From IMG/VR virus record IMGVR_UViG_3300020200_001375, positions 1-38,624 of that record: 38,624 bases of DNA. One strand, 5' to 3'. The position numbers and the translations under genes were made by a program. This document shows, piece by piece, positions 1,082 to 18,958 of the stretch. Source of the stretch: a virus. The notes under the pieces are model-generated. The model worked only from the letters and a program-made list of their open reading frames with translations. It was not told the origin of the DNA and did no database searches. How positions within the stretch are numbered: the stretch's first letter is position 1; each line of letters begins with the position of its first letter.

Positions 1082-1082
1082 T

Positions 1083-3252: not shown

Positions 3253-3881
3253 AAGAATTTAAAGCATTAAATGATGATAATTGGAAGCAATTTATAATGA
3301 ATGAAGTATCTTACATTCTGTCAAATGAATGTTATGGCGGAATTTGTATAGATGCTGGGTGTAACATTGGAGATTTTCCTATGAATCATAGAAATCGTTT
3401 TGATAAATATGTATGTTTTGATATATACGATGACAATATACAAAAATGTATAGAAAATACTATCAATATAGGTGTACCCGTCGAAGTAAAAAAATTAGCA
3501 GTGTGGTCGGAATCAAATAAAAAAATAGATGTATTTGCATATAAAATGCATGACAAAGAAGATTTAAACGTTTTTGGAAATAGTGGAAGTATAGGATGTA
3601 TAGAATATAATGGCCCTCATGGAGAAGGATGGCACAAAGAAAATAAAATCGGAGAAGTATATACTATTTCAATAGAAGATATATGCAAACAATACGGAAA
3701 AATAAATTTATTAAAAATTGACGTTGAAGGATCAGAATACGAATTCTTAATGAATAAAGATTTATCAAAAATTAATTATATTGTTGGAGAATTTCATTTT
3801 TCGTCGGAAAAAATAGAAGCTCTAATAAATTGGATTAGAAATACTCACCATCAAATAAGAGGCGGATTTAAACTAAAATAA
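3249..3881 (+). CDS. FkbM family SAM-dependent methyltransferase
   Basis: This is a probable sugar O-methyltransferase of 210 residues. The SAM-binding loop is CIDAGCNIGDFP, followed by the acidic strand end CFDIYDDNI. The FkbM-type core motif LLKIDVEGSEYEFL lies near residue 155. There is no membrane or signal sequence. It overlaps the GNAT gene by four bases. FkbM enzymes commonly methylate sugar hydroxyls in polysaccharide, glycopeptide or macrolide pathways, and the context here points to capping or modification of a glycan. Confidence 0.85.
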   Translation: MKEFKALNDDNWKQFIMNEVSYILSNECYGGICIDAGCNIGDFPMNHRNRFDKYVCFDIYDDNIQKCIENTINIGVPVEVKKLAVWSESNKKIDVFAYKMHDKEDLNVFGNSGSIGCIEYNGPHGEGWHKENKIGEVYTISIEDICKQYGKINLLKIDVEGSEYEFLMNKDLSKINYIVGEFHFSSEKIEALINWIRNTHHQIRGGFKLK

Positions 3882-3888
3882 TAAAAAT

Positions 3889-4530
3889 ATGCCATCAAAT
3901 CTAAATACTCACAATCCCTTCAAAATCGTAAAGATGTTTGAAGAAGAAATTGCAAATTATACAGGAGCACCATATGCAGTGTCAGTTGACAGTTGTACAA
4001 ATGCATTGTTTTTATGTTGCAAATATCTAAATGTAAAAGAAGTTACAATTCCAAGTAAAACTTATCTTTCAGTACCCATGTCTATCGTTCACGCAGGAGG
4101 AGAAGTTATATTTGACAAAAGAGGTGAAACAAATCATTGGAGCGGATTGTATCAATTAAAACCATATCCAATTTGGGATAGTGCAAAACGATTAACAAGT
4201 AAAATGTATATACCAGGCCAATTCATGTGTCTGTCATTCCATATTAAAAAATCATTGGGAATAGGAAAAGGAGGAATGATTTTAACAGACAATGAAGACG
4301 CGGTAAAATGGTTTAAACGTGCCAGATATGAAGGAAGGTCTGAGAAGTTCTATAAAGAAGATGATATTGAATTCTGTGGATGGAACATGTATATGTTTCC
4401 TCTATTGGCAGCTAGAGGATTAGAACTTATGCAAAATTATCCAGAACACGTAACTGATACTCCAGAAATAAATGGATATAGAGATTTGACAGAATTTAGT
4501 GCATTTAAGAAATGTAAAATTATAGAATGA
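3889..4530 (+). CDS. short DegT/DnrJ/EryC1-type sugar aminotransferase
   Basis: PLP-dependent enzymes of this family aminate keto sugars on nucleotide carriers. The 213-residue protein keeps the cofactor-binding half. It has a VDSCTNAL phosphate-binding segment near residue 33, WDSAKRL with Asp97 where the pyridine-nitrogen aspartate sits, and SFHIKKSLGIGKGG with Lys121 at the Schiff-base position. Full-length members are about 370-400 residues, so most of the C-terminal domain is missing. The stop is clean and the next gene starts four bases later, so it looks like a compact form rather than a fresh truncation. Activity as an aminotransferase is likely but unproven. Confidence 0.75.
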   Translation: MPSNLNTHNPFKIVKMFEEEIANYTGAPYAVSVDSCTNALFLCCKYLNVKEVTIPSKTYLSVPMSIVHAGGEVIFDKRGETNHWSGLYQLKPYPIWDSAKRLTSKMYIPGQFMCLSFHIKKSLGIGKGGMILTDNEDAVKWFKRARYEGRSEKFYKEDDIEFCGWNMYMFPLLAARGLELMQNYPEHVTDTPEINGYRDLTEFSAFKKCKIIE

Positions 4531-4533
4531 AAC

Positions 4534-5619
4534 ATGGAAAATATAGATATATTATATATATGCGGCCCCATAGGTTATGAAAAATCCGTGAGTGGAAATT
4601 ATTATATATATAAAATATTATGTGACCATTTAAAAAAATATAATAACAAATGTATATCTATATGGGATTATCCATATCATAGTTATTGTAATCCTTCACA
4701 TTTTATAAAATATTGTCATTGGGATAGATTGAAATCATTGTCAAAAGAAAAATTAATAGAATTGTTGCCTAACCATAAAATTTTATTTCTATGTGGAGAT
4801 GAATTTACTGAAGACCAATTGTTATTCATAAAAAACCATTATAATTGTAAAATTTTTATAATGGCAATGACATCGTGGGTATTTGGAAACCGTTCAGAGA
4901 GTTATCCCGAGATAGAAGGCAGTTTATTATCCGATATTGCAAAACAGAGGTCTATAAAATATGAACAAGCAAATATTGATATAATAAATGCGTCATCATA
5001 TTCATCTAATATTCAATCAATTAGTTTTTTTAAAAATTTAAAAAATCATATAATTCCATTAATTACAACGGAAAATATGCAAAAATATGATAAAGAAAAA
5101 AACATAAATCGTGAGTTTAAAACTATTTTGTGGGGAACTACTCAACCAGAGTGTTTTAGAAAAGGAAAACATAAACTCGAAAATATATTAAATATATTAT
5201 ACAAAAAATATAATAAAACAAATATAAAAATAAATAATGTAGGACCAATTACTAACATAAACTCCCCATATGAAGTAATTAGTCATGGAATTTTAGATAA
5301 AAAAGAAATGGCAAATATGTATCATCAATCAGATGTATTTGCATTGACAACTCTCGCGGATTCGGGACCAATGATGGCAACAGAATGTGTGTACAATGAG
5401 ACGCCGTTAGTATCGTATAATACAAATATTGCACTTGATATTACAAATAATGGCATTAATGGATATACAGTAAATACAGATGAAAAATTTGCAGATAAAC
5501 TTTATGAGATATTATTTGAACAAAAATATAAAATGTCAATTGAATACTTGTTTAATTTTTCATCTACTGAAAAAATATTAGAAAAATACGAATCTATTTT
5601 TGACAAATATATACAATAA
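4534..5619 (+). CDS. GT4-like (GT-B fold) glycosyltransferase
   Basis: This is a 361-residue probable retaining glycosyltransferase. The C-terminal half carries the typical donor-binding region of group 1 enzymes. SDVFALTTLADSGPMMATEC near residue 270 is the position of the usual E-x7-E type block, and VYNETPLVSYNTNIALDIT with a GINGYTV turn follows. The N-terminal domain begins with IDILYICGPIGYEKSVSGNYY, a nucleotide-fold strand with a glycine-rich acceptor loop. It lies between the short aminotransferase and the fucosyltransferase with 3-base gaps. Substrates are unknown. Confidence 0.78.
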   Translation: MENIDILYICGPIGYEKSVSGNYYIYKILCDHLKKYNNKCISIWDYPYHSYCNPSHFIKYCHWDRLKSLSKEKLIELLPNHKILFLCGDEFTEDQLLFIKNHYNCKIFIMAMTSWVFGNRSESYPEIEGSLLSDIAKQRSIKYEQANIDIINASSYSSNIQSISFFKNLKNHIIPLITTENMQKYDKEKNINREFKTILWGTTQPECFRKGKHKLENILNILYKKYNKTNIKINNVGPITNINSPYEVISHGILDKKEMANMYHQSDVFALTTLADSGPMMATECVYNETPLVSYNTNIALDITNNGINGYTVNTDEKFADKLYEILFEQKYKMSIEYLFNFSSTEKILEKYESIFDKYIQ

Positions 5620-5622
5620 CAT

Positions 5623-6483
5623 ATGATAACATTTCTAAATTTAGGATTAAACGGAAGATTAGGAAATCAGCTATTTCAATATGCTGCACTAAAATCATTA
5701 TCAATTAAAAAAAATTATACTATTAAACTGCCAAATATAGAAAATCTTGTTTGGCACAATCAAAAATGTTTATTAAACCAATTAAATATAAAAGAAGAAG
5801 TTATTACTGATGTTGATATATCACAGTTACAATTCGAATTTGAAGAAACGTCTTTTGACACTAACTTTTTTGAATTGCCTGACAACATTTCTTTAAATGG
5901 GTATTTTCAGAACATTAATTATTTTATCGATAATATATCACTATTTAAAAATTTATATAAAAGCAACGATAATATCGTAAATCAAGCTGTTTCAAAATTT
6001 CAAGAATATTCGAAACAAAGAAAACATAATAATATAATAGGAATACACATAAGATTAGGAGATAATATTACGGTATACCCAGCAAAAAGTATTTATGAAA
6101 AAATAATGATGGGTGATCCTTATATTACATATTTAAAATCTGCAATTGAATTTTTTGGAAAAGATAATGATTATTTAATATTTTGCGGTGGAACTAGAGA
6201 TTCAAAAACAGGTCAAGATAGTAATGATATAAAATTATGTAAAGAAATACTCAAGAATTTTGATTGTAATTTTATATATTCCGTTGGAAACGACACTTTA
6301 ATAGACTTTGAATTAATGAAAATGTGCAATCATAATGTTTTGTCTCCAATAAGTTCATTTAGTTTGTGGATTGGATATCTGTCCGATAATAAAAAAATTG
6401 TTGTACCAAAAAGTTATTTTATGAATGCCGAAAATCACATTGATATGAATTCGATATATCTTAAAGATTGGAATAGATTATGA
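5623..6483 (+). CDS. alpha-1,2-fucosyltransferase-like (GT11) enzyme
   Basis: GT11 enzymes transfer fucose from GDP-fucose to galactose-type acceptors; some relatives use other deoxysugars. The 286-residue protein has the N-terminal LNGRLGNQLFQYAALKSL signature and the central NGYFQNINYF block. GIHIRLGDNI matches the HxRRxD-type GDP-binding motif, with Leu in place of the second Arg. The C-terminus has SSFSLWIGYLS, matching the conserved S-x-F-S-W-W-x-A-x-L region. No GDP-fucose pathway is complete in this window, so the donor may be supplied by the host or by the GDP-sugar epimerase at 8932. Confidence 0.85.
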   Translation: MITFLNLGLNGRLGNQLFQYAALKSLSIKKNYTIKLPNIENLVWHNQKCLLNQLNIKEEVITDVDISQLQFEFEETSFDTNFFELPDNISLNGYFQNINYFIDNISLFKNLYKSNDNIVNQAVSKFQEYSKQRKHNNIIGIHIRLGDNITVYPAKSIYEKIMMGDPYITYLKSAIEFFGKDNDYLIFCGGTRDSKTGQDSNDIKLCKEILKNFDCNFIYSVGNDTLIDFELMKMCNHNVLSPISSFSLWIGYLSDNKKIVVPKSYFMNAENHIDMNSIYLKDWNRL

Positions 6484-7088
6484 AAATGATTAATTTGGGA
6501 GGATATGGAGGGTGTTCACTAACTCAAGTTTTGAGAAAATTTCGTTTCAATACGGAGGCATTCCCATTTGACTGGAATATCGCCAATCAACAATTCGTAA
6601 CAAAATGTATAAATTCATCAGGAAGTTATTTTTTTAACTTTGACGACAATAAATATTTATTTGATACAAATATTTTATTGTCGCCTAATAATGATGCTTT
6701 TTGTATACACGATTTTGTAAATTGGGAGGCGCAAAAAAATGAAGTAAAATTGAAATATATACGTAGATTAAATAGACTTATAAATTATATACATTCCGAT
6801 GAAGATATATTATTTTGCCGACATATGTTGGATATTAATCCCTATAATGATTATCACAAATCCAGTTGGAGTAGAATTCCTTTTGTTATAAATTATGATG
6901 ATATCAATTGTTGGAAAGATTTTTTGAACGGATTAAATAGAAAGGCTACAACAAAACTTGTACTAATAACAAACAATCCTACATTAGAATCAAATCATCC
7001 AGATATATTAATTTGTAAACAAATAGATAATTATACAAATTGGGACAATACAGTTTTTAACTTTATCAACAATTTAATTGAATACTAA
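6480..7088 (+). CDS. DUF1796 (putative papain-like cysteine peptidase) protein
   Basis: The N-terminus NLGGYGGCSLTQVLRKF followed by NTEAFPFDWN matches the opening signature of DUF1796, a family annotated as putative papain-like cysteine peptidases and often found beside glycosyltransferases. Cys12 is the candidate nucleophile. A CIHDF stretch and a DILFCRHML stretch further along fit conserved His-containing positions. The protein is 202 residues, shorter than many members, and soluble. It overlaps the fucosyltransferase by four bases. The biochemical role of this family in glycan clusters is not established, so I leave it open. Confidence 0.65.
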   Translation: MKMINLGGYGGCSLTQVLRKFRFNTEAFPFDWNIANQQFVTKCINSSGSYFFNFDDNKYLFDTNILLSPNNDAFCIHDFVNWEAQKNEVKLKYIRRLNRLINYIHSDEDILFCRHMLDINPYNDYHKSSWSRIPFVINYDDINCWKDFLNGLNRKATTKLVLITNNPTLESNHPDILICKQIDNYTNWDNTVFNFINNLIEY

Positions 7089-7090
7089 AT

Positions 7091-8191
7091 ATGAAAAATA
7101 TATCTATAATCGGAGTAGGAAAACTAGGTTTATGCCTATCTCTCAATTTAGAAGCAATCGGATACAATATAATCGGAATCGATGCATCAAATGATTATAT
7201 AAATTCTCTAAAAGAAAAAACTTTAATTACAAATGAACCATATGTAACCGAATTATTAAAAAATTCAAAAAACATAAAATTTACAATCGATTTAAAACAA
7301 TCATTAAACAATGATATAATTTTTATTGTAGTCAATACTCCATCAACGCCTGATTGGAAATATGACCATAAAAACATCGATGACGTTATAGAACAGTTGA
7401 TTTCATTTGGAAAACAATCAATCAGAAAAGACATAATTATTAATTGTACTACATTCCCAGGTTATTGTGAATCTTTGAATAAAAAATTAAACAGTTATAA
7501 TTATTATGTTTCATATAATCCCGAGTTTATTGCCCAAGGATCTATTATAAAAGACCAATTATATTGTGATTCTGTATTGATTGGTCAGTATGATGAATAT
7601 ATAGGAAATATAATTGAATCTATCTACAAAGACATGTGTAAGTCAAATCCGACAATTAACCGAATGACTCTGACAGAAGCCGAATTAGTGAAATTATCAG
7701 TTAATTGTTTTCTGACTACAAAGATTTCTTTTGCGAATATGATAGGTGATATATCAAAAAAGATAAATTGCAATCCGACAATTGTTCTAAATGCAATTGG
7801 TGCAGATTCTAGAATTGGAAATAAATATTTAAAACACGGGTTTGGCTTTGGAGGACCATGTTTTCCGAGAGATAATAGAGCATTAGCAAAATGTGCCGAA
7901 GAAGTAGGAATAAATGCTATTATTTCAAAATCGACGGATGAAATGAATTCTCTACATTTAGATTATCAAATTGAAGATTTTATAAAATCAAATCCAAATA
8001 AAAATATTCCAATCGAAATAGATTCTATTACTTATAAAGTAAACAGTGATATAATCGAAGAATCTCAACAATTAAAATTTGCAATTAGATTGTCCGACAT
8101 AGGATATTCTGTTATAATAAAAGAGATTGACACTGTTATTAAAAAATTAAAATCGAGTTATGGAAACAAATTTACATATATTATCAGATAA
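7091..8191 (+). CDS. UDP-glucose/UDP-ManNAc dehydrogenase family enzyme
   Basis: These NAD-dependent enzymes oxidise C6 of a nucleotide sugar twice to a uronic acid. The 366-residue protein opens with a Rossmann loop (SIIGVGKLGLCLSLNLE). It then has NPEFIAQGSII and the central dimerisation helix TEAELVKLSVNCFLTTKISF. GFGFGGPCFPRDNRAL contains the catalytic Cys. The C-terminal domain is short compared with the usual 390-430 residue enzymes but includes EESQQLKFAIRLSDIGYSVII. With the WecB-type epimerase upstream, UDP-ManNAcA is a reasonable product, though UDP-GlcA cannot be excluded. Its end overlaps the NAD synthetase gene by 32 bases. Confidence 0.85.
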   Translation: MKNISIIGVGKLGLCLSLNLEAIGYNIIGIDASNDYINSLKEKTLITNEPYVTELLKNSKNIKFTIDLKQSLNNDIIFIVVNTPSTPDWKYDHKNIDDVIEQLISFGKQSIRKDIIINCTTFPGYCESLNKKLNSYNYYVSYNPEFIAQGSIIKDQLYCDSVLIGQYDEYIGNIIESIYKDMCKSNPTINRMTLTEAELVKLSVNCFLTTKISFANMIGDISKKINCNPTIVLNAIGADSRIGNKYLKHGFGFGGPCFPRDNRALAKCAEEVGINAIISKSTDEMNSLHLDYQIEDFIKSNPNKNIPIEIDSITYKVNSDIIEESQQLKFAIRLSDIGYSVIIKEIDTVIKKLKSSYGNKFTYIIR

Positions 8192-8930
8192 GATTATAAA
8201 ATGGATTTCAAATTATTGTAAAAATAATAAAATAAAATCATTAGTTGTAGGCGTAAGCGGAGGTGTCGATAGTGGATTAGTTAGCACATTATGTGCAAAA
8301 ACTAATTTGCCAACATATGTTATAAGTATGCCTTTACATCAAGAGTTTTCTCAACTAGAAAGATCCAGAAATCATTGTAAATGGTTGACTGATAATTTTA
8401 AAAATGTGACGTTTATAGAAAAAGACCTCACCCAAACATTTGAAACATTTAAATCGTTATTTATAGATGACTATAATAGTAAATTAGCATCTGCAAATAG
8501 TAAATCTAGATTGAGAATGATAACACTTTATCAAATCGCAGGTTCTACAAACGGAATAGTAGTTGGAACAGGAAATAAAATTGAAGATTTTGGAGTTGGG
8601 TTTTTTACAAAATATGGCGACGGCGGTGTTGATATTAGCCCCATATCCGATTTAACCAAAACAGAAGTTAGGTTAATGTCTAAAACATTAAATATTCCCG
8701 ATTTTATAGTCAATGCTATTCCTACAGATGGTCTGTGGGATGATAATAGAAACGATGAAAGTCAAATAGGAGCATCATATGAAGAATTAGAATGGGCAAT
8801 GGAATATAAAGGCGATATGGAAACACTTACAAATCGTCAACGTGCGGTATATAATATATATCATAAATTAAATACTCAAAATCAACATAAAATGATACCC
8901 ATTCCTCAATTTAAAAAAGAAAGTATATAA
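8160..8930 (+). CDS. nadE: NH3-dependent NAD+ synthetase (NadE-like)
   Basis: NadE amidates nicotinic acid adenine dinucleotide to NAD+ using ATP and ammonia. The 256-residue protein has the PP-loop GVSGGVDSGLVSTL, the NadE block GTGNKIEDFGVGFFTKYGDG with the following GVDISPISDLTKTEV, and the late PTDGLWDDNRNDESQIGASY region corresponding to the family's substrate-closing segment. There is no glutaminase domain. The ATG at 8160 lies inside the previous gene, giving a 32-base overlap that suggests coupled expression with the NAD-using dehydrogenase. N-type PP-loop amidotransferases also occur in nonulosonate pathways, but the TKYGDGG segment favours true NadE. Confidence 0.85.
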   Translation: METNLHILSDKIIKWISNYCKNNKIKSLVVGVSGGVDSGLVSTLCAKTNLPTYVISMPLHQEFSQLERSRNHCKWLTDNFKNVTFIEKDLTQTFETFKSLFIDDYNSKLASANSKSRLRMITLYQIAGSTNGIVVGTGNKIEDFGVGFFTKYGDGGVDISPISDLTKTEVRLMSKTLNIPDFIVNAIPTDGLWDDNRNDESQIGASYEELEWAMEYKGDMETLTNRQRAVYNIYHKLNTQNQHKMIPIPQFKKESI

Positions 8931-8931
8931 T

Positions 8932-9933
8932 ATGAATAAAAAAATAGCAATTGTTTTAGGAGCAGGTGGATTTATAGGTGGTCATTTAGTTAAACGATTA
9001 AAAGAAGAAGGTTACTGGGTTCGTGGTGTTGATATTAAAAATAATGAATATCAAAACTATGCCGATGATTTTGTTCTCGGAGACCTAACTGACTCAAATG
9101 TAGTTGAATGTGTAATTCCTGAGAATGCTGATGAAGTATATCAACTCGCTGCAGATATGGGTGGGGCATTATATATTTTTACAGGTCAAAATGATGCAAA
9201 TGTAATGCATAATTCTGTATTAATTAATTTGAATGTGGTCCACGAATGCGTAAAAAAGAAAGTCAAAAAAGTGTTTTATTCTTCAAGTGCATGCGCATAT
9301 CCAGAATATAATCAAATGGATCCAAATAATCCAAAGTGTGCAGAGAAGGATGCATATCCCGCCGAACCAGATAGCGAATATGGTTGGGAAAAATTGTTTA
9401 GTGAACGTCTATATTTAGCATATAATAGAAATCATAAATTGGATGTTAGAATTGCAAGATTTCACAATATATTCGGTCCATGTGGAACATATAAAGGAGG
9501 AAAGGAAAAGGCACCAGCTGCAATGTGTAGAAAAGCAATCGAAACACAAAACGACGGAGAATTAGAAGTGTGGGGAGATGGAAAACAAACTCGTTCTTTT
9601 CTTTATATAGATGAATGTATTGAATCAGTTTTAAGATTTATGAGACAAGATTCATTTTTAGGACCTGTAAATATAGGTTCCGAAGAAATGGTAACAATTA
9701 ATGAATTAGCAAAAATAGCAATCAATTTAACCGGCAAAAAGATAAATATCAAAAATCTAGCCGGAGAAGAATTTAAACAAAAATATGGGTTTAAATGTCC
9801 TACCGGCGTAAGAGGTAGAAATTCAGATAATAAATTATATCATGAAAAAATGGGATGGGAACCTTCACAACCTCTTAAAATAGGAATCGAAAAAACATTT
9901 AATTGGATTAATCAACAATTGACAAATTCTTGA
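8932..9933 (+). CDS. GDP-mannose 3,5-epimerase-like extended SDR
   Basis: The 333-residue NAD-dependent epimerase closely resembles GDP-mannose 3,5-epimerase, which converts GDP-D-mannose to GDP-L-galactose or GDP-L-gulose. Visible features are the Rossmann loop GAGGFIG (10-16), the AADMGGA block, YSSSACAYPE with Cys121 at the catalytic Cys position, YGWEK (Tyr150, Lys154) and RFHNIFGP. These are followed by the KGGKEKAPAAMCRKA segment that holds the second catalytic Lys in plant enzymes, and WGDGKQTRSFLYIDEC. The match to the plant family in the Cys and KEKAPAA regions is specific enough to prefer this over a general UDP-sugar epimerase. Host GDP-mannose would be the substrate. Confidence 0.78.
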   Translation: MNKKIAIVLGAGGFIGGHLVKRLKEEGYWVRGVDIKNNEYQNYADDFVLGDLTDSNVVECVIPENADEVYQLAADMGGALYIFTGQNDANVMHNSVLINLNVVHECVKKKVKKVFYSSSACAYPEYNQMDPNNPKCAEKDAYPAEPDSEYGWEKLFSERLYLAYNRNHKLDVRIARFHNIFGPCGTYKGGKEKAPAAMCRKAIETQNDGELEVWGDGKQTRSFLYIDECIESVLRFMRQDSFLGPVNIGSEEMVTINELAKIAINLTGKKINIKNLAGEEFKQKYGFKCPTGVRGRNSDNKLYHEKMGWEPSQPLKIGIEKTFNWINQQLTNS

Positions 9934-9953
9934 TAATCCGTACAATATTAATT

Positions 9954-11273
9954 ATGGATAAATTAGAACAGATTCTATCGTTGGTTTCCGATTATATAGA
10001 AGAAAAACATTCATCAAAAAAATGGGAAAAAGGCAAAGATTGGGTACAATATGCGGGACCACATTTTTCTGAAAAAGAGTATGTTGCGGCTATTAAATCA
10101 TTGTTAAATGAGTGGTTGGTACTGGGTCAAGACGTAATAACATTTGAAAATAAGTTTTCTGTATTGTTAGGGAAAGAATATGGTATATTAACAAACAGCG
10201 GCAGTAGTTCCAATCTTATAATGATGTCCGCAATGACTTCTAAAAGATTATATAATTTTAAAAAAGGAACCAAAGTAATTACTCCTATTGCGGGGTTTCC
10301 TACTACGTTAAACCCAATTTTACAAGTAGGATTCGAACCGATTTTTGTTGATATCGATTTAGATACACTCAACCTTAATTTAGACCAAGTTGAAGAACAG
10401 GCAAAAAAAGGTGTAAAAATAATTACATTTGCTCATGTATTGGGAAATCCTCCTAATATGAACCGTTTAATGCATATAGTTAAACAATACAATCTAATAT
10501 TATTAGAAGATTGTTGTGACGCTCTTGGTTCAACTTACGACAATAAACCATTGGGAAGTTTCGGAGAATTAACAAGTTGTAGTTTCTATCCAGCACATCA
10601 TATGACAATGGGCGAGGGTGGATTTATTGCATGCAATACAAAGATACAAGAAATAGTTACACGCAGTTTTCGTGAGTGGGGTCGTGGATGTTACTGTATA
10701 GGTAAAAAAGCAAATTTGTTAAAGAACGGAAGTTGTGGAAATAGGTTCTCAAATTGGTTGCCAGAATTACCAAATGAAATATTTGACCATAAATATGTAT
10801 ATGATGAAATTGGATATAATTTAAAACCAATTGAATTACAAGCTTCCATCGGACTTGAACAGATCAAAAAACTGCCAGAGATTCATCGCAAAAGAAAAGA
10901 AAATCATTCAAGATTGGTTAATATATTTTCTAAATATGAAGAATATTTTTATATTCCAAAAGCAACCATGAATTCAGACCCAAGTTGGTTTGCATTTGCA
11001 TTAACAATTAAAGATAATTCAAAATTTAAAAGAAAAGATATAGTTGATTATTTAGAATCGAACAAAATTCAAACTCGGCCATATTTTGCGGGAAATATAA
11101 TGTTACAACCTGCTTATGACGGATTGATTAATAAAAATGATGTTATTAATAAATATCCAAATGCTAGAAAAATTACAACTGACACTTTCTTTTTAGGCAC
11201 TAGTCCTGTAATAACACATGAACAATTGGACTATGTGGAAAATACAGTTGAAAACTTTTTTAAAAATATATGA
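9954..11273 (+). CDS. RfbH/DdhC-type Fe-S PMP-dependent 3-dehydrase
   Basis: The first ATG at 9954 is preferred to an upstream in-frame TTG at 9930, giving 439 residues, the length usual for RfbH. E1/RfbH enzymes remove the 3-hydroxyl of an NDP-4-keto-6-deoxy sugar on the way to 3,6-dideoxy or branched sugars. The fold is DegT-like, but the Lys is replaced by His: FYPAHHMTMGEGG, His215. The [2Fe-2S] ligand pattern is visible as C188-X57-C246-X-C248-X12-C261. The first two spacings equal those of the E1 motif and the last is longer than its X7. The DCCDALGS and FREWGRG blocks also match. The partner reductase (E3) is not in the window. Confidence 0.87.
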   Translation: MDKLEQILSLVSDYIEEKHSSKKWEKGKDWVQYAGPHFSEKEYVAAIKSLLNEWLVLGQDVITFENKFSVLLGKEYGILTNSGSSSNLIMMSAMTSKRLYNFKKGTKVITPIAGFPTTLNPILQVGFEPIFVDIDLDTLNLNLDQVEEQAKKGVKIITFAHVLGNPPNMNRLMHIVKQYNLILLEDCCDALGSTYDNKPLGSFGELTSCSFYPAHHMTMGEGGFIACNTKIQEIVTRSFREWGRGCYCIGKKANLLKNGSCGNRFSNWLPELPNEIFDHKYVYDEIGYNLKPIELQASIGLEQIKKLPEIHRKRKENHSRLVNIFSKYEEYFYIPKATMNSDPSWFAFALTIKDNSKFKRKDIVDYLESNKIQTRPYFAGNIMLQPAYDGLINKNDVINKYPNARKITTDTFFLGTSPVITHEQLDYVENTVENFFKNI

Positions 11274-12259
11274 GAGTTGCATTTTTGACCGAAATGAATT
11301 TTTCTGGAAAAATACCAGAGATGCACAAAAACATGCGAACTGAATTCGCATGGATGTATGCTCTTAATGCCGATCATTTTTATATAGAAAATTGGTCAAA
11401 TGTTAGCGGTTATGATTACATAATGATAATATTTCCAAAAGGAGAAGTATTTCTAAACGCAGTAGGATCAAAATTGAAAGACGATATCAATTCTAAATCA
11501 TTATTATTATCTTCTTCAATAATTTTAGATTTAAAGTCAAAAAATAAGTTTGTATGTTCTATACAAGAGGGACCTACATGGTTATGTAATGATTTAGAAT
11601 TAGTAGACCAATTTAACTTTTACAATAGACTTGTAGAATGTGATATATTATTCGCACATAATACATATGATACATTATGGTATAAAGGATTATTTCCAGG
11701 TAAACGAGTTGAAGTAATGCCTACATTAATGATTGAAAATTTAGTAAATAATATTATTCCAACAAAAAATAATAAAGTTATATTAGGTGGAAATTTTAGT
11801 AGATGGTACGGCGGATTTCAAAGTTTTATTATTGCCGAAGAATTTCAATGTGAAAAATATGTTCAAACTTCTCATTCAAGTAGAACCGGAGAAGACGATA
11901 TACCGGGACTATCAGTATTGCCGAGGTTGTTTTGGTACGATTGGATGGTAAATTTATCAACTTTTAAATATGCAGTGCATATGATGCCTACTGTTGCAGC
12001 GGGAACATTTTCTTTAAACTGTGCATATTTTGGAATACCATGTATAGGAAATAAAAAAGTGGATACTCAAATAGAGTGTTTTCCAGAATTGTCATTTGAT
12101 TCAGAAGATGTAGAGGGCGCTAGATACGCAGCAAAAAAATTATATGAAGATGAAAATTTTTACATAAAATGTAGCGAATTCTCAAAAAACGTGTATAAAG
12201 ATAAATTTACATTAAAGGATTTTAAAAATAAATTGAATAAAATTCTAACAAATATTTAA
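11270..12259 (+). CDS. GT-B-like glycosyltransferase (putative)
   Basis: This is a 329-residue soluble protein with a likely two-domain GT-B layout. The first strand MRVAFLTEMNFSG is followed by an EFAWMYALNADHFYIENW region. A C-terminal donor-site-like stretch, MMPTVAAGTFSLNCAYFGIPCIGN, leads to a helical tail, YKDKFTLKDFKNKLNKIL, common in family 4 enzymes. No single diagnostic motif fixes the family. It begins with an ATGA overlap on the RfbH gene. The role is probably transfer of one of the unusual sugars made by the neighbouring enzymes. Confidence 0.6.
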   Translation: MRVAFLTEMNFSGKIPEMHKNMRTEFAWMYALNADHFYIENWSNVSGYDYIMIIFPKGEVFLNAVGSKLKDDINSKSLLLSSSIILDLKSKNKFVCSIQEGPTWLCNDLELVDQFNFYNRLVECDILFAHNTYDTLWYKGLFPGKRVEVMPTLMIENLVNNIIPTKNNKVILGGNFSRWYGGFQSFIIAEEFQCEKYVQTSHSSRTGEDDIPGLSVLPRLFWYDWMVNLSTFKYAVHMMPTVAAGTFSLNCAYFGIPCIGNKKVDTQIECFPELSFDSEDVEGARYAAKKLYEDENFYIKCSEFSKNVYKDKFTLKDFKNKLNKILTNI

Positions 12260-12272
12260 AAGAAAATAATTT

Positions 12273-13235
12273 ATGAAAAAAATAGTATATGTTACAGGTT
12301 GTTTAGGGTTTATAGGTTCTTATGTTACAAGAGAATGTCTAAACAAAGGATGGTATGTAAAAGGAATCGATAAAATTACATATGCCGCACAACCAAATTT
12401 ACTTGATGAATTTAATAAATATAAAAATTTCAGTTTTGAACAAAAAGACATTTGCGATTTAGATAGATTAATTGATTGTGATTATTTTATTAATACCGCA
12501 GCGGAATCGCATGTAGACAACTCTATTAGAAATAGTCAGGAATTTTTACATTCAAATGTAAATGGAGTATATAATATTTTAGAATTAATAAAATTATATA
12601 GCAAAAAAGAAAGTGGAACATGTCCTATTTTCTTACATTTCAGTACAGATGAAGTATACGGCGATGTCACTGAAGGAGAACATATAGAAACAGACATATT
12701 AAAACCAAGCAATCCTTATTCCGCAACAAAAGCTGCGGCAGACCAATTGATATTGGCATGGGCAAGAACATATAATATTCCATATATCATATTTAGACCT
12801 ACAAACAATTATGGTATTGGTCAATATGTTGAGAAATTAATCCCAAAAACATGTAAATTTTTAAATATTAATAGAAAAATTGCTCTACATAATAATGGAA
12901 CTCCTGTGAGAAATTGGTTACATGCGAACGATACTGCAACAGGTGTGATAACAATTATAGAATCAGGTATTAAAAATGAAATATTTAATATTGCAGGTGG
13001 ATTTGAACAATCTAATATTGTAACCGTAGAAAAAATAATTGAAAAATATTTGGGACATTTACCAATTGATTATAAAGAAAAATATATAGATTTTTCTTTA
13101 TCAAGGCCAGGTCAAGATGTAAGATATGCTCTTAATGATAATAAATTAAGAAGTTTAGGTTGGAAGCCAGAAAAAAATTTTGATATTGAAATTAAAAATA
13201 TAGTCAATTACTATAAAGAAAACTTTATTTGGTAA
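12273..13235 (+). CDS. RmlB-like NDP-glucose 4,6-dehydratase
   Basis: This is a 320-residue extended SDR that would convert an NDP-hexose to its 4-keto-6-deoxy form. The Rossmann loop is VTGCLGFIGSYV, followed by DKITYAAQPNLLDEF as in RmlB. TAAESHVDNSI, STDEVYGDV (the Thr-Asp-Glu catalytic group), YSATKAAADQL (YxxxK) and RPTNNYGIGQYVEKLIP are all present, as is VRNWLHANDTA. The match is best to dTDP-glucose 4,6-dehydratase, but the nucleotide specificity is not readable. It is the likely supplier of the 4-keto substrate for the RfbH-type dehydrase. The paired nucleotidyltransferase (RmlA/DdhA) is absent here. Confidence 0.85.
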   Translation: MKKIVYVTGCLGFIGSYVTRECLNKGWYVKGIDKITYAAQPNLLDEFNKYKNFSFEQKDICDLDRLIDCDYFINTAAESHVDNSIRNSQEFLHSNVNGVYNILELIKLYSKKESGTCPIFLHFSTDEVYGDVTEGEHIETDILKPSNPYSATKAAADQLILAWARTYNIPYIIFRPTNNYGIGQYVEKLIPKTCKFLNINRKIALHNNGTPVRNWLHANDTATGVITIIESGIKNEIFNIAGGFEQSNIVTVEKIIEKYLGHLPIDYKEKYIDFSLSRPGQDVRYALNDNKLRSLGWKPEKNFDIEIKNIVNYYKENFIW

Positions 13236-13238
13236 TAT

Positions 13239-13544
13239 ATGATTATTTTTATTGATATAGATGGAACAATATGTAATACTCCTGATGTTTCGGATTATTC
13301 TGTGAGTCATCCCATTAAAGAAAATATTAAAATAGCCAACAATCTATATAATGAGGGACATACAATTATTTATTGGACTGCTAGAGGAACTGTAACGAAA
13401 AAGGACTGGCGAGAAGTCACGGAAAAACAACTAAAAAAGTGGAAAGTCAAATATCATGAATTAAGGATGGGAAAACCATACTATGATTTATTTATAGATG
13501 ACAAAAATATAAATGCCAAAGATTTTAATAAATTACCAATATGA
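13239..13544 (+). CDS. small HAD-superfamily phosphatase-like protein
   Basis: The 101-residue protein begins with FIDIDGTICNTP, the HAD nucleophile motif DxDGT (Asp6, Asp8). YWTARGTVTKKDW follows as motif II. Lys-rich GKPYYDLFIDDKNINA provides motifs III and IV (Lys and the acidic pair). There is no cap domain, so it is a minimal HAD like those in capsule and LPS clusters. Its stop overlaps the NeuB start in ATGA form. A role in dephosphorylating a NeuB-type product or another sugar phosphate is a fair guess only. Confidence 0.72.
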   Translation: MIIFIDIDGTICNTPDVSDYSVSHPIKENIKIANNLYNEGHTIIYWTARGTVTKKDWREVTEKQLKKWKVKYHELRMGKPYYDLFIDDKNINAKDFNKLPI

Positions 13545-14584
13545 ATAACCAAATTTTTCAGAACTTATTTGTTTTAGAATTAGCAAATAATCACTGGGGA
13601 TCTTTAGATAGAGGTAAAAAAATTGTACGAGAATTTGCTAAAGTTGTAAAATCTAATAAAATTAAAGCATCAATCAAACTTCAATTTAGAGACGTTGACA
13701 GTTTTATACATAAAGATTTTAAAAATGAAAATAGTAGATATATACAAAAAACTAAAAAAACTAAACTTACGTTTTTAGAATTTTCTGAATTGGCTGATTA
13801 TGTTAAAAAACAAGGTTGTATTCCGATGGCAACCCCATTTGACGAGACATCTGTAGATTGGTGCGTCGAATTAAATTTACCTATAATAAAAATAGCAAGT
13901 TCAGATATAAACGATTGGATATTAATTAATAAAATAGGAAATACAAAAAAACCTGTGATTATATCTACAGGCGGCGCGAATGATAAACAAATAGATGATG
14001 TAATTAAATTTTTTACAAATAGAAATATACCGATTGCAATAAATCATTGCGTTTCAAAATATCCAAGTTTAGATGAAGAACTTGAGCTAAATCAAATAGA
14101 TTATTTAAAAAATAAATATCCAAATTTAACAATCGGATTATCTACTCACGAATATCACGATTGGCATTCTTCAATGTTGATTTCTTATGCCAAAGGCACT
14201 AGAACATGGGAAAGACATATAGATATTCCTTATCCTAAAAATCATGAACAAAAAGAAGTTTCTTCTTATTGCTCATTACCACATCAAATTGATGAATGGT
14301 TTAAAGCACATAACAAAGCAGTAATTATGTGTGGAACATCATCGGATGTTCGCAGAATAATTGATGAAAAAGAATCTTATTATTTAGAATCATTATACAG
14401 AGGTCTTTATCTGAAAAGAGATATGAAGATGGACGATATAATTACTATTGATGATTTGTATAGTGCAATCCCTTATCAAAAAGAAATAGGACAAATATCA
14501 TCAAGAGATTTTATAGAAAAGGATTGTATTTTGAATTGTAATATAAATAAAGATGAACCATTATTAAAAACTCATATAAAGTAA
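13541..14584 (+). CDS. neuB: NeuB-type N-acetylneuraminate/nonulosonate synthase
   Basis: NeuB enzymes condense phosphoenolpyruvate with ManNAc or a related amino sugar to form sialic, legionaminic or pseudaminic acids. The 347-residue protein has the TIM-barrel signatures. These are ELANNHWGSLDRGKKIV, KLQFRDVDSF, ATPFDETSVDW, IASSDINDW, ISTGGAND, HCVSKYPS, GLSTHEYHDW and a WERHIDIPYP segment. The C-terminal part RGLYLKRDMKMDDIITIDDL is an SAF (antifreeze-like) domain. Length equals the family norm. The CMP-transferase (NeuA) is not in the window, so activation of the product would need a gene elsewhere or the host. The exact sugar cannot be read. Confidence 0.87.
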   Translation: MNNQIFQNLFVLELANNHWGSLDRGKKIVREFAKVVKSNKIKASIKLQFRDVDSFIHKDFKNENSRYIQKTKKTKLTFLEFSELADYVKKQGCIPMATPFDETSVDWCVELNLPIIKIASSDINDWILINKIGNTKKPVIISTGGANDKQIDDVIKFFTNRNIPIAINHCVSKYPSLDEELELNQIDYLKNKYPNLTIGLSTHEYHDWHSSMLISYAKGTRTWERHIDIPYPKNHEQKEVSSYCSLPHQIDEWFKAHNKAVIMCGTSSDVRRIIDEKESYYLESLYRGLYLKRDMKMDDIITIDDLYSAIPYQKEIGQISSRDFIEKDCILNCNINKDEPLLKTHIK

Positions 14585-14588
14585 TAAG

Positions 14589-16337
14589 ATGAAATTATCA
14601 GAATATGTTTTCGATTTTATAGAATCAAAAAAAATAGACACAGTTTTTACTGTCTCAGGTGGTGGATGTATGCATTTAGTTGATTCTCTTGGTAGAAATA
14701 AAGTAATAAAGTATGTTTGTAATCATCACGAACAGGCATGTGCAATGGCAGCCGAAGGTTATGCAAGAACTTCGGAAAAACCTGGTTGTATTTTAGTAAC
14801 AACTGGTCCTGGAGGAACAAACTCATTAACAGGAGTTTTGTGTGCATATCAAGATTCTATTCCAATGATTGTATTATCAGGACAAGTTCCAACCGAACAG
14901 TTGTCCAATGGAACGGGATGTAGACAAATTGGACAACAAGAATTTAATATAGTAGAAACTGTAAAAACAATGACTAAATATGCAGTTGTAATTACGGATA
15001 AAAACACAATTAAGTATGAATTAGAAAAAGCATATCATATTGCAACATCTGGTAGACCAGGTCCTGTATGGGTTGATATACCGTTAGACATACAGGCATC
15101 AGAAATAGAACCTTCAGAATTGAGTGGATTTTATTTAAAAGTAATTCCAAATAATAATTTACAAAAGTTTGAAGAATTAAAGTTACTATTAAATAAAAGT
15201 AAAAAGCCAGTTATAGTTGTTGGTGGTGGGATAAGATCTTCATTAACAGTAAATCAATTCAAAAAATTTATAGATGAATTGCAAATACCAGTTATGACTG
15301 GACCACATTCTGCAGTTGATGTTGTTAATACTGATTACAAATACTATGCTGGTAGATTTGGTTTATTAGGACAATACACATCAAACTCACTAATACAAGA
15401 AAGTGATTTGGTTATTTCATTGGGTTCTAGATTAAATCCAAAAATGATAGGTTATGATCAAAATAAATTTGCACCAAATGCAAAAAAGTTTTTGGTAGAT
15501 GTTGATATAAATGAAATGAACAAATTAAAGTTTAATTCAAAAGTTCAATGGGAAATAGATTTGAAAGATTTTTTTGAAATTGTTTTAGGTAATATATCGA
15601 AACCAGACATAGAAACCTGGAGAGATTATGTAGTTAATCATAGATCAAAAGAAAAACTTGTGTTGGAAAAACATAAAACATTAACCGATTATGTTAGCAC
15701 ATATGTATTTGCAAAAGAACTAGAAAAATATTTATCCGATGATTCTATAATAGTTACAAGTGATGGAACTGCCCATGTTGTTCCATTGAAAACTATCAAC
15801 TTAAAATCTAATCAGAGATTATTTAGTAATGAAGGAACCGCTCCTATGGGATATGGTTTACCAGCGGCAATTGGAGCACATTATGGATCTAATAAACCAA
15901 TAATTTGTATTGAAGGTGATGGTAGTATTATGATGAATCTTCAAGAACTTGAAACTGTCCGTCATAATAAAATACCATTAATATTATTCATAATAAATAA
16001 TGATGGTTACTTGTCAATAAAACTAACACAAAATTCTTTCTTTAAAGGAAATTTAGTTGCATCGGAAAAATCATCGGGGGTGTCCATTCCAAAATTTAGT
16101 TCAATTGCAGATGTATTCGGTTTTAAATATTTTTCAATAAATAATAATAATGAAGTAAATGATGTGTTAAATAAAGTATTTAATGAAAATTATTTGTTTC
16201 CGATTATAGTTGAAGTTTTTTCTGATCCAAATGAACAACACGAACCAAAAGTTCTTGCAAGAGGAATAGATAATAGTGGTAAAATAATACCAGGCGAATT
16301 AACAAACATGAATATAAATATTTTTGTGGAGAAGTAA
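14589..16337 (+). CDS. ThDP-dependent acetolactate-synthase-like enzyme
   Basis: This is a full-length 582-residue thiamine-diphosphate enzyme. The Pyr domain has HHEQACAMAAEGYAR with Glu48 as the cofactor-activating residue, and TTGPGGTNSLTGVLCAYQDS. The central domain has VVGGGIR, SLGSRLNPK and related strands. The PP domain carries the GDG...NN ThDP motif starting near residue 443 (GDGSIMMNLQELETV, then NNDGYLS). Relatives range from acetohydroxyacid synthase to YerE, which adds a two-carbon acetyl branch to a 3,6-dideoxy-4-keto sugar. Next to an RfbH-type enzyme and an SDR, a YerE-like role is attractive, but the substrate is inferred from context. Confidence 0.83.
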   Translation: MKLSEYVFDFIESKKIDTVFTVSGGGCMHLVDSLGRNKVIKYVCNHHEQACAMAAEGYARTSEKPGCILVTTGPGGTNSLTGVLCAYQDSIPMIVLSGQVPTEQLSNGTGCRQIGQQEFNIVETVKTMTKYAVVITDKNTIKYELEKAYHIATSGRPGPVWVDIPLDIQASEIEPSELSGFYLKVIPNNNLQKFEELKLLLNKSKKPVIVVGGGIRSSLTVNQFKKFIDELQIPVMTGPHSAVDVVNTDYKYYAGRFGLLGQYTSNSLIQESDLVISLGSRLNPKMIGYDQNKFAPNAKKFLVDVDINEMNKLKFNSKVQWEIDLKDFFEIVLGNISKPDIETWRDYVVNHRSKEKLVLEKHKTLTDYVSTYVFAKELEKYLSDDSIIVTSDGTAHVVPLKTINLKSNQRLFSNEGTAPMGYGLPAAIGAHYGSNKPIICIEGDGSIMMNLQELETVRHNKIPLILFIINNDGYLSIKLTQNSFFKGNLVASEKSSGVSIPKFSSIADVFGFKYFSINNNNEVNDVLNKVFNENYLFPIIVEVFSDPNEQHEPKVLARGIDNSGKIIPGELTNMNINIFVEK

Positions 16338-16339
16338 TC

Positions 16340-16591
16340 ATGGAATTTAAACAAGTTAATAGTGAAGAACCGGACAAGCATTGGGAATTTGTTTCTGTTG
16401 TAGATAAGAGAGTTTTAGATTTAGGATAATGGAGGCGGAACAATTTCAAACATAAACGAATATAATTTTTCTATAAAAAACTTAATTGGGTCAATTTTAA
16501 AAAAATTTGTAATGCAATATAAAAAATATATATTAATATCAAAGAATCTACTCATATAGGAATGACAAAATATATAGATAAATATTTATGA
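16340..16591 (+). pseudogene. broken gene, possible SAM-methyltransferase remnant
   Basis: Three fragments in three frames look like one decayed gene. The ATG at 16340 opens 29 codons ending in KHWEFVSVVDKRVLDLG before a TAA at 16427-16429. The frame one base on continues from 16428 as NGGGTISNIN, which would complete a VLDLG-x-GxG SAM-binding loop. That frame stops at 16557. The last fragment, from 16523, reads INIKESTHIGMTKYIDKYL and ends at a TGA overlapping the next ATG (ATGA), as intact operon genes do. At least two indels are needed to restore a frame, and the middle also looks shortened. The methyltransferase identity rests on one motif. Confidence 0.55.
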
Positions 16592-17352
16592 AAATTTTAG
16601 TCACGGGTTCAAATGGATATATCGCAAAATCAATTATCAATACGTTTAGTAATAAATATGATATAATTAGTTTATCTAGACATGATGCGGATTTAACAAT
16701 TTCAAATGAAGTAAATAACTTTTTCAAAAAACATAATTTTTTTGATGTAATAATTCATACCGCAATTGTTGGTGGAAACAGATTAATACCAGAAACTGAT
16801 GTTGTCATTGATAAAAATTTAAAAATGTATTATAATTTATTAGAACATCAAGATAAATATAATAAATTTATATCATTTGGTTCTGGTGCAGAATTATATC
16901 AAACTAATACTCCATACGGTTTAAGTAAAAAAGTAATACATGAATCAATGTTGGGAAAACAAAATTTTTATAACATTAGAATCTTTGGTCTATTTGATGA
17001 AAACGAACTTCAAACTAGATTTATAAAATCAAATATAATAAGATATATAAAAAAAGAACCCATTCAAATTTATGAAAATAAACTGATGGATTTCTTTTAT
17101 ATGAAAGATTTTTTATCAATTATAGATTATTATTTAAATAATAATATATTAAAAAAAGTTGTAAATTGTTCATATAAAGAAAAATACAATTTGTTAGAAA
17201 TTGCCAATATAATTAATAATTTAGAGAAATATAAAGTAGATATAATTGATTCAAATATTAAATCAAACGATTATATAGGAGAATATAACTGTGATATTCC
17301 ATATATCGGATTATTACAAGGAATCAAAAATGTATACAAAAAGGTAAAATAA
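16588..17352 (+). CDS. extended SDR, sugar epimerase/reductase
   Basis: This is a 254-residue NAD(P)-dependent sugar-modifying enzyme. The Rossmann loop is KILVTGSNGYIAKSI. A HTAIVGG segment takes the place of the HxAA block, FISFGSGAEL follows, and TPYGLSKKVIHES gives YxxxK. NIRIFGLF and FFYMKDFLSII follow the family order. It is short for an extended SDR and resembles reductase-type members such as RmlD, GDP-fucose synthase or YerF. Placed directly after the ThDP enzyme and the broken gene, it may reduce a keto group on the same sugar. That assignment is contextual. Confidence 0.78.
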   Translation: MKILVTGSNGYIAKSIINTFSNKYDIISLSRHDADLTISNEVNNFFKKHNFFDVIIHTAIVGGNRLIPETDVVIDKNLKMYYNLLEHQDKYNKFISFGSGAELYQTNTPYGLSKKVIHESMLGKQNFYNIRIFGLFDENELQTRFIKSNIIRYIKKEPIQIYENKLMDFFYMKDFLSIIDYYLNNNILKKVVNCSYKEKYNLLEIANIINNLEKYKVDIIDSNIKSNDYIGEYNCDIPYIGLLQGIKNVYKKVK

Positions 17353-18635
17353 TGAACACAAATTTAACATTTTGCATAAATACCGCAAAAAACGAAATAA
17401 ATCACATCAAATTATTATTTAAATCGTTAGAAATAAATCTTTCAAGAAAAGATTATGATATTATTGTATTCATTGACAGCGATAACCAAAATACTACAGA
17501 ATGGTTATTAACACAAAAATCAATATTTAAAAATTTAAAAATAATTAAAAATCCCAATCCGATTCCAATTGGATATCAGAGAAATATCAATCTAATGTTT
17601 GAAATGTCAAAGACGGATATAGTCTCTTATATCCAATCCGATATGGTTATTTCAAAAAATTATGATTTAGATGTATTAAAAAATTTAACAGAGAATACTA
17701 TTATCTCCAGTACAAGAATAGAACCTCCTTTACATCCTCGATCACCGGAGAAAATCACATATGATTTTGGATTAGAACCAACCAAATTTAATTTTGAATC
17801 GTTTCAAATGTTCGCATCACAACAAAAACAAAATAAATTAACAGATTATTGGTTTGCACCATTTACATTATATAGAAAAGTATGGAACGAAATTGGTGGA
17901 CACGATACAATATTTAGACGTGCAAGAGAAGATTCAGATGTGCTCTATAGACTCTGTATGAAGGGTATACAATTTAAACAAGATTGGAATGCAATTGTAT
18001 ATCATTTTACATGTACTTCTTCCAGAGGTAACGAATGGTGGAAACAAGAAAACCAAGAAAGAACACGATTGCAGACTATCGCGGATCAAATAGAAATGAT
18101 GCGATTTTTAAGAAAATGGGGAAAATTTAAACACGATACTAAACAAAATAAAGAAGATTTTAAATATAACATTTCTATAAATTTTAAAAATTCATTAAAC
18201 AACGAAAAATTTATATTTGAAAATTATTATTTATTTAATAAAATAAGTATTGATAATGAACACTCATATAATTTATTAAAACATAATTATGATAAACAAC
18301 ATGATGTTGCAAATAAATTATTAAATATATCAGATGAAATATGGCAAAAAACAAAATCTTCATATAGAACTATAGAATTTGAAGATATATTCTCTATGTC
18401 GCCAATAGAAGACGATGTTGTTATTACTTTGGATTTAAATCATATTAATCAAAAAATCGTGGAATATCTTCACAAAATGCAAGAAATTATAAAATATTCA
18501 TTAAATGAAAATGATAATGGAGAATTTGATTTAGAAAATAATATGAATATAAAAGTAAATAAATTGACAAATAGAATTTATGAAAATATAGTTGTAAAAA
18601 ATCCACCTCTAACATTACCAATAGAATACTTATGA
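17352..18635 (+). CDS. family 2-like glycosyltransferase with C-terminal extension
   Basis: This is a 427-residue GT-A type enzyme. The N-terminus LTFCINTAKNEINHI is followed by IIVFIDSDNQNT. GYQRNINLMFEMSKTDIVSYIQSDMVIS carries the metal-binding acidic motif (QSDM). FAPFTLYRKVWNEIGGHDTIFRRAREDSDVLYRL is the acceptor-side and catalytic ED region. After about residue 240 there is a charged, mostly helical extension rich in Asn and Lys of about 180 residues with no recognised domain. Its ATG shares one base with the preceding stop (TAATG). Donor and acceptor are unknown. Confidence 0.8.
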   Translation: MNTNLTFCINTAKNEINHIKLLFKSLEINLSRKDYDIIVFIDSDNQNTTEWLLTQKSIFKNLKIIKNPNPIPIGYQRNINLMFEMSKTDIVSYIQSDMVISKNYDLDVLKNLTENTIISSTRIEPPLHPRSPEKITYDFGLEPTKFNFESFQMFASQQKQNKLTDYWFAPFTLYRKVWNEIGGHDTIFRRAREDSDVLYRLCMKGIQFKQDWNAIVYHFTCTSSRGNEWWKQENQERTRLQTIADQIEMMRFLRKWGKFKHDTKQNKEDFKYNISINFKNSLNNEKFIFENYYLFNKISIDNEHSYNLLKHNYDKQHDVANKLLNISDEIWQKTKSSYRTIEFEDIFSMSPIEDDVVITLDLNHINQKIVEYLHKMQEIIKYSLNENDNGEFDLENNMNIKVNKLTNRIYENIVVKNPPLTLPIEYL

Positions 18636-18958
18636 TAATAACATTTATAATATTTATTAATATAATATGGTTTGAAACAGAAGCATTTGTTGAATATATT
18701 AAATTATTCAAACTCAATTGGTTCAAAGTTAACGAATATTTGACAACAAAAGAATCAAATTTTGAATTAACATATCATTCATATTTATTACAATATCACA
18801 GAAACTTTTTTACAAAATTAATAACATGTCCAATATGTCTTACAACCTGGTTAAGTATTATATCAAGTCTATTATTTACAAAATCTATATTCGATTTTTC
18901 AATTATATTCGTGTTATCAATACTTGGTTATAATATTTATAAAAAACTATCAACATGA
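18632..18958 (+). CDS. small membrane protein with CPICLTTW motif
   Basis: I do not recognise a function. The 108-residue product starts with a hydrophobic helix (IITFIIFINIIWF). It has a polar middle section, and then a second hydrophobic region, LISSLLFTKSIFDFSIIFVLSILGYNIYK type, preceded by the pair CPIC in TCPICLTTWLS. The CxxC close to the membrane could bind metal or form a disulfide. Both ends overlap neighbours by four bases (ATGA), so it belongs to the glycan operon. A role in membrane association of the glycosyltransferases is possible but not shown. Confidence 0.6.
   Translation: MIITFIIFINIIWFETEAFVEYIKLFKLNWFKVNEYLTTKESNFELTYHSYLLQYHRNFFTKLITCPICLTTWLSIISSLLFTKSIFDFSIIFVLSILGYNIYKKLST

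Follow-up and report, generated by a model that had tools for sequence, protein, structure and literature searches.

The question raised by positions 9954-17352 of the viral record IMGVR_UViG_3300020200_001375 (IMG/VR) is which sugar a phage could build with two sugar dehydratases, a thiamine diphosphate (ThDP)-dependent enzyme, and a reductase; the viral fragment of 38.6 kb (38,624 nucleotides) that was analyzed as a whole is referred to here as the window. A preliminary description of this DNA listed genes for an RmlB-like dehydratase, an RfbH-like dehydratase, a ThDP enzyme, and a short-chain dehydrogenase/reductase (SDR), proposed a branched-chain deoxysugar route on the pattern of yersiniose synthesis, and placed E3 and a nucleotidyltransferase outside the window. 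All four genes are in place, intact and on the plus strand, and neither a Fer2 domain nor a nucleotidyltransferase (NTP_transferase, the cytidine diphosphate (CDP)-glucose synthase) was found in the 38.6-kb fragment, as that description had it. A NeuB-like gene and a small gene of the haloacid dehalogenase (HAD) type, both unmentioned there, sit between the RmlB and ThDP genes.

We consider it likely that this part of the phage genome is a module that makes a C4-branched 3,6-dideoxyhexose with a NeuB-derived donor, and the best reading of its product is a caryophyllose/erwiniose-like sugar, not the two-carbon yersiniose. The branched-chain route first proposed is supported by the clade placement of the ThDP enzyme, by the RfbF-RfbG-RfbH neighbors of its bacterial homologues, and by the exchange of ThDP enzymes in viral loci, with two amendments: the branch is probably not the two-carbon one of yersiniose, and the dehydratase is not of the CDP-glucose type. 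The module lies in a glycan island (approximately positions 305-18635), and the fragment also carries phage-type genes, namely, those for UvsX-like, DnaB-like helicase, single-stranded DNA-binding, exonuclease, and ribonucleotide reductase proteins.

The ThDP enzyme and the two sugar dehydratases

By family, the ThDP enzyme is a YerE/JanthE-type ketone carboligase, with the activity predicted. It possesses the Pfam domains TPP_enzyme_N, M, and C, that is, the three-domain architecture of the decarboxylase superfamily, the GDG...NN ThDP motif with GDG at residue 443, and a catalytic glutamate, E48 in NHHEQ, that is invariant in alignment A1. The closest solved relative is JanthE (8rph; 351 bits, 32% identity), with acetohydroxyacid synthase (AHAS) at 232 bits, and structural modeling, which the preliminary description had suggested, agrees: a fold search with the model (mean predicted local distance difference test (pLDDT) score 89.6) returned JanthE first, ahead of AHAS. 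A 72-row tree unites the phage enzymes with 37 bacterial homologues, JanthE, and 5ahk, which we take to be PpYerE (a literature search could not confirm this), in a single group (support 100) that excludes the ten AHAS sequences, and a mixture-model tree recovers the same grouping, again with support 100. Such a tree had been set beforehand as a refutation test of the branched-sugar proposal, and the enzyme fell not with AHAS but in the clade of JanthE and 5ahk. JanthE is described as YerE-like, with ketones and 2-oxo acids of short or long chain among its substrates (PMC12247030, PMC12188165). Its hot-spot residues Y297 and K567 are retained in the window enzyme as Y289 and K554; V121, Y268, P293, H494, and F564 are not.

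The RfbH-like protein scores above the cut-off of NCBIfam NF011936 (RfbH; 470 bits, cut-off 423), and, among solved structures, it matches E1 best (3bcx, 359 bits), with which its active-site stretch SFYPAHH agrees; 3bb8 differs, with lysine there. The histidine in place of lysine and the iron-sulfur (Fe-S) cysteine set C-X57-C-X-C-X12-C are exactly as claimed at the outset (C188, C246, C248, and C261), and the last spacer is 5 residues longer than in 3bcx, an insert visible in the alignment. All viral 3-dehydratase-like proteins with a readable active-site motif have histidine and none has lysine (131 and 124 proteins). An E1-like 3-dehydratase with histidine for lysine (SFYASHVITAGG) and without the Fe-S cysteines stands in RfbH's stead at L002:3477-4637 and L013:6183-7322, and in loci L007, L010, and L023.

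The RmlB-like protein keeps the dehydratase residues STDEVYG and YSATK and matches TIGR01181 at 298 bits, against 75 bits for CDP-glucose 4,6-dehydratase; judged by these profiles, it belongs to the deoxythymidine diphosphate (dTDP) type (RmlB) and differs in this from the CDP-glucose dehydratase used in the Yersinia pathway.

The proposed donor synthase and the length of the branch

Homologues of the ThDP enzyme were found in 80 bacterial loci from many phyla (37-45% identity), where they occur within RfbF-RfbG-RfbH clusters. Their neighbors include glucose-1-phosphate cytidylyltransferase (401 bits, cut-off 300), CDP-glucose 4,6-dehydratase (427 bits, cut-off 278), and RfbH, the last present in 36 of the 51 loci that extend 7.5 kb or more to either side of the ThDP gene (the full-flank set). 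These neighbors therefore place the enzyme in CDP-3,6-dideoxyhexose clusters, as is the case for YerE. Eight of ten genomes with such a homologue encode a separate true AHAS above the TIGR00118 cut-off (538 bits); the homologues themselves fall below it, at 310-373 bits. In one Elusimicrobiota cluster (L048), the YerE-like clade is represented by two ThDP enzymes adjoining RfbH and NeuB, and one of them groups with 5ahk.

The viral searches were seeded from such loci and returned the nearest relatives of the seeds, with some contigs appearing in several searches, and the proportions given here are upper estimates. Among 26 viral loci with relatives of the ThDP enzyme, the order RmlB-(HAD)-NeuB-ThDP-SDR is recurrent, with a 3-dehydratase nearby; a homologue of the SDR, which carries YGLSK at residue 110, is present in 21 of these 26 loci and in 16 of the 51 full-flank bacterial ones. 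When the search was seeded with NeuB, a ThDP gene was close by in 59 of 61 viral loci, the other two contigs ending beside NeuB, and RmlB, a 3-dehydratase, and SDR accompanied it in 50, 46, and 46 of the 61, respectively. In L013, L014, L016, L017, and L020 and in about 30 of these 61 loci, although not in the window, the ThDP gene is followed by a gene for an AroB-related putative sugar-phosphate phospholyase (related to TIGR04425), accompanied by an SDR and frequently by a kinase-like gene.

The NeuB-like protein has 3g8r as its closest solved structure both by sequence and by fold (model pLDDT 92.8, template modeling (TM) score 0.88), keeps the metal-binding histidine pair H203 and H226, invariant in 25 sequences, and belongs to a subfamily whose members, in phages and across bacterial phyla, are 49-81% identical to it. 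It falls far below the profile cut-offs for sialic acid (NeuB, 113 of 400 bits) and pseudaminic acid (PseI, 124 of 340 bits) synthases, and R314 of the C-terminal domain of Neisseria meningitidis sialic acid synthase NeuB (mutants 4ipi and 4ipj) is replaced by Ile310. A role in legionaminic, pseudaminic, or sialic acid synthesis was rejected because of the missed cut-offs and the loss of this arginine. The HAD-like protein matches phrog_1238 (103 bits) and, far below the cut-off, TIGR01689 (30.8 bits); a homologue lies directly before NeuB in at least 5 phage loci.

The NeuB, HMGL, and HpcH/HpaI families all form 2-oxo acids by making a carbon-carbon bond. We scored as donor partners NeuB of the window's subfamily, HMGL proteins nearest to 4-hydroxy-2-oxovalerate aldolase, and HpcH/HpaI aldolases within 8 kb of the ThDP gene. 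At least one of the three is present in 44 of the 51 full-flank bacterial loci, exactly one in 42, and the partner switches at least 8 times on a 45-row tree of the ThDP enzymes. Eight AHAS control regions from the same genomes contained no NeuB, HpcH, or RfbH, and their HMGL matches were weak (54-68 bits, versus approximately 320-810 in the YerE-like loci). An RfbH-seeded search returned 80 close viral loci, 76 with RmlB and 36 with a YerE-like enzyme, some of the latter accompanied by HpcH (11 loci), HMGL (9), or NeuB (2). ErwE is reported to refuse pyruvate and to favor 4-hydroxy-2-oxo acids, the caryophyllose enzyme MMAR_2332 being similar (PMC12247030), and caryophyllose bears a hydroxylated C6 chain on C4 (PMC7821131). 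From the exchange of partners and this precedent for long 2-oxo acids, we infer that the product of the NeuB-like synthase is the donor of the ThDP enzyme. The branch is thus probably not of the two-carbon yersiniose type, given that a 2-oxo-acid synthase belongs to the module.

The foremost competing explanation keeps the yersiniose-like version, with the ThDP enzyme using pyruvate while NeuB and the HAD protein make an independent nonulosonic-type sugar. YerE does use pyruvate and JanthE accepts it (PMC12247030), and 7 of the 51 bacterial loci and 14 of the 36 viral RfbH loci with the enzyme have no donor partner. We nevertheless regard this version as unlikely: NeuB adjoins the ThDP gene in every phage NeuB locus that reaches that far, NeuB, HMGL, and HpcH substitute for one another beside the ThDP enzyme, the NeuB-like protein has the non-sialic features described above, and no CMP (cytidine monophosphate)-transferase was recognized among the genes of window positions 1-18958.

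Exchangeable ThDP enzymes in viral loci

Most of the remaining viral RfbH loci contain a pair of short genes, whose common place is between RmlB and SDR. According to Pfam, the first encodes the N-terminal domain of an E1 dehydrogenase or of a transketolase and the second a transketolase pyrimidine domain; with sizes of approximately 208-215 and 165-200 amino acids, these are miniature split pairs in which only the two ThDP-binding domains are recognized. Examples are L239:11289-12415 and L210:11252-12422, and approximately 150 more viral loci carry such miniature enzymes between RmlB and SDR in RfbH clusters. Searches seeded with the two kinds of small genes found RmlB in 68 of 80 and 74 of 79 loci, a 3-dehydratase in 72 and 62, and SDR in 76 and 73; RmlB and SDR are both at most 2.5 kb away in 108 of 158 small-gene loci. 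Overall, 46 viral RfbH loci extend 6 kb or more to each side; a ThDP enzyme is present in 44 of them (in two of these 44, only half a pair was recognized), and in 19 of the 44, a split transketolase- or E1-type pair takes the place of the YerE-like enzyme. Use of ketones has been reported for three superfamilies, those of the decarboxylases, the alpha-keto-acid dehydrogenases, and the transketolases; two of the three have members that branch sugars, and the third is proposed to (PMC12247030). The occurrence of three unrelated kinds of ThDP enzymes (YerE-like, miniature split transketolase, and miniature split E1 dehydrogenase) in one context is therefore the strongest sign that carbon-carbon branching of a keto-sugar is the purpose of the module.

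The same observation bears on a second alternative, in which the product of RfbH, RmlB, and SDR is an ordinary 3,6-dideoxyhexose, and NeuB and the ThDP enzyme belong to a separate pathway (for example, one in which a 2-oxo acid is decarboxylated to an aldehyde), the two merely sharing a polysaccharide island. All of these are glycan genes of one island, no ThDP enzyme was found in the cultured cyanophage RN05-S, which has RfbH, and the SDR occurs also with other ThDP types, but some ThDP enzyme of one of the three kinds accompanies RfbH in 44 of the 46 viral loci just described and the same YerE-like enzyme lies within bacterial RfbF-RfbG-RfbH clusters, which makes such a coincidence improbable. 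An AHAS-type auxiliary metabolic gene for amino-acid supply, as the generic annotation and 341 bits to TIGR00118 might suggest, is ruled out for practical purposes by the tree, by the cost of constraining the enzyme to join AHAS (334 log-likelihood units, approximately unbiased (AU) test p-AU 5e-78), by a score below the 538-bit cut-off, and by a sugar-synthesis neighborhood with no small-subunit gene adjoining.

Beyond the window, we cautiously favor the view that phages carry a widespread, modular C4-branched 3,6-dideoxy-sugar pathway, with unrelated ThDP enzymes swapped in one slot; its YerE-like form would have a dedicated donor gene, of the NeuB family or for an aldolase, and would yield hitherto undescribed sugars of ten or more carbons. 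No isolated phage with the module was found in the phage collection: ThDP matches there are at most 34% identical and resemble bacterial AHAS genes in assemblies, and NeuB matches are at most 32% identical. A literature search found nothing on branched sugars of phages, and a 2025 review only suggests that viruses may have such enzymes (PMC12247030); phages seem to make unusual sugars not attributed to them before.

The proposed pathway, its weak points, and related systems

Family membership, active-site residues, clade placement, and conserved co-occurrence are observed; from these, we infer each reaction, the nucleotide, the chain length of the donor, the order of the steps, and the final acceptor. 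RmlB would convert host nucleoside diphosphate (NDP)-glucose, probably dTDP-glucose, to the 4-keto-6-deoxy sugar, from which RfbH would strip the 3-hydroxyl with electrons that, there being no E3, would come from the host. The NeuB-like synthase would join phosphoenolpyruvate (PEP) to an aldose, free or phosphorylated, and the HAD protein may dephosphorylate the resulting 2-keto-3-deoxy acid. The ThDP enzyme would then decarboxylate this 2-oxo acid and transfer the resulting acyl-anion equivalent to the ketone at C4, which would become a tertiary alcohol bearing a polyhydroxylated side chain. The SDR would reduce the side-chain ketone, and phage glycosyltransferases would attach the finished sugar. 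Coordinates and assignments are collected in Table 1.

Table 1. Genes of the proposed branched-sugar module in the window
Feature	Position	Strand	Predicted role	Basis
RfbH-like (E1-type) sugar 3-dehydratase, 439 aa	9954-11273	+	3-OH removal from 4-keto-6-deoxyhexose	NF011936, 3bcx match, motifs
RmlB-like nucleotide-sugar 4,6-dehydratase	12273-13235	+	4-keto-6-deoxyhexose supply	TIGR01181 298 bits (cut-off 365), STDEVYG/YSATK
Small HAD-like protein, 101 aa (weakest assignment)	13239-13544	+	possible phosphatase for phosphorylated 2-keto-3-deoxy acid	TIGR01689, phrog_1238
NeuB-like synthase, distinct subfamily	13541-14584	+	PEP + aldose (phosphate) to 2-oxo-acid donor	PF03102, 3g8r
YerE/JanthE-like ThDP carboligase, 582 aa	14589-16337	+	2-oxo-acid decarboxylation and transfer to keto-sugar C4	8rph, trees, AU test, fold search
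Methyltransferase remnant, first ~29 codons	16340-16426	+		tblastn 3e-8, 63% identity to L002:11742-12287
RmlD/epimerase-type SDR	16588-17352	+	reduction of new-branch ketone (or C4 ketone in branchless variants)	PF01370 60 bits

Several observations weigh against this scheme. The RmlB-like protein is below the equivalog cut-off of TIGR01181 (298 of 365 bits) and is of the dTDP type, whereas the characterized RfbH and YerE use CDP-sugars, so that RfbH might work on another pool. The closest phage, L002, has, in place of RfbH, an H-type 3-dehydratase without the Fe-S cysteines. No Fer2 (E3-type) protein was found in 24 phage records (the window and 23 others, 14 of them 120-269 kb long). At the JanthE positions Y268 and P293, which contact flavin adenine dinucleotide (FAD), the window enzyme has L260 and K285. 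Finally, the 14 viral loci noted above that combine RfbH with a YerE-like enzyme lack all three donor partners in the stretch covered.

Nucleotidyltransferase-family proteins are likewise rare in phage records (1 of 19 and 4 of 15), and the phages would have to draw NDP-glucose and electrons from the host. Such a host supply of dTDP-glucose and electrons is plausible: dTDP-glucose is made by many bacteria, and SpnQ is a relative of RfbH that works on dTDP sugars with cellular reductases.

One close counterpart is yersiniose A synthesis in Yersinia pseudotuberculosis (E1/RfbH, E3, YerE, and YerF), which shares with the window an RfbH-type 3-dehydratase, a ThDP carboligase of the decarboxylase superfamily, and a reductase; the bacterial homologues of the window's ThDP enzyme likewise keep company with RfbF-RfbG-RfbH. 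The window differs in having a dTDP-type RmlB for the CDP-glucose dehydratase, no E3 and no cytidylyltransferase, a NeuB-like gene beside the ThDP gene, and a phage carrier. JanthE of Janthinobacterium sp. HH01 (8rph, 8rpj) is the nearest solved relative by sequence and fold; the window enzyme has the canonical GDG, not CDG. With the branching enzymes for erwiniose (ErwE) and caryophyllose (MMAR_2332), compared by their described chemistry (PMC12247030, PMC7821131), the likeness proposed here is the long functionalized 2-oxo-acid donor; no NeuB-type donor synthase is described for these systems in the literature found. The split pairs of related phages resemble the two-subunit ThDP enzymes of paulomycin and avilamycin synthesis (Pau11/Pau12 and AviB1/AviB2), which, aided by a ketoreductase, install a C4 branch and reduce it (PMC4753412), but the phage pairs are miniature and the window itself has a one-chain enzyme. 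Cyanophages (Synechococcus phages RN05-S, S-H68, and others) carry an RfbH homologue (41% identity) in a phage glycan island; in RN05-S, no ThDP or NeuB partner was found. The chemistry is known, and what is new is the genetic carrier, the donor-synthase partner, and the miniature ThDP enzymes of the relatives.

If the scheme is correct, higher-carbon branched sugars, whose chemistry has hitherto been tied to bacterial lipopolysaccharide and antibiotics, are made or remodeled by phages. This suggests a coat sugar of unusual chemistry that would serve to glycosylate the virion or to alter the host surface. Hundreds of new ketone carboligases, very small two-subunit ThDP enzymes among them, would become available together with natural partners that indicate the donor, and the 2-oxo acid used by each YerE-like enzyme would become testable through the neighboring synthase or aldolase.

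Among the other genes, the methyltransferase is intact at the corresponding place in L002, between the ThDP and SDR genes, whereas the window has only its cut-short start. The 329-amino-acid protein encoded between RfbH and RmlB (11270-12259, plus strand) has no match in Pfam, NCBIfam, or PHROGs and has a homologue in L002 (396 bits). The glycan island also includes a NAD synthase-like gene (8160-8930, plus strand; TIGR00552, 179 bits), and a Mom-like DNA modification protein is encoded at positions 28360-29142 on the minus strand (phrog_1384, 141 bits).

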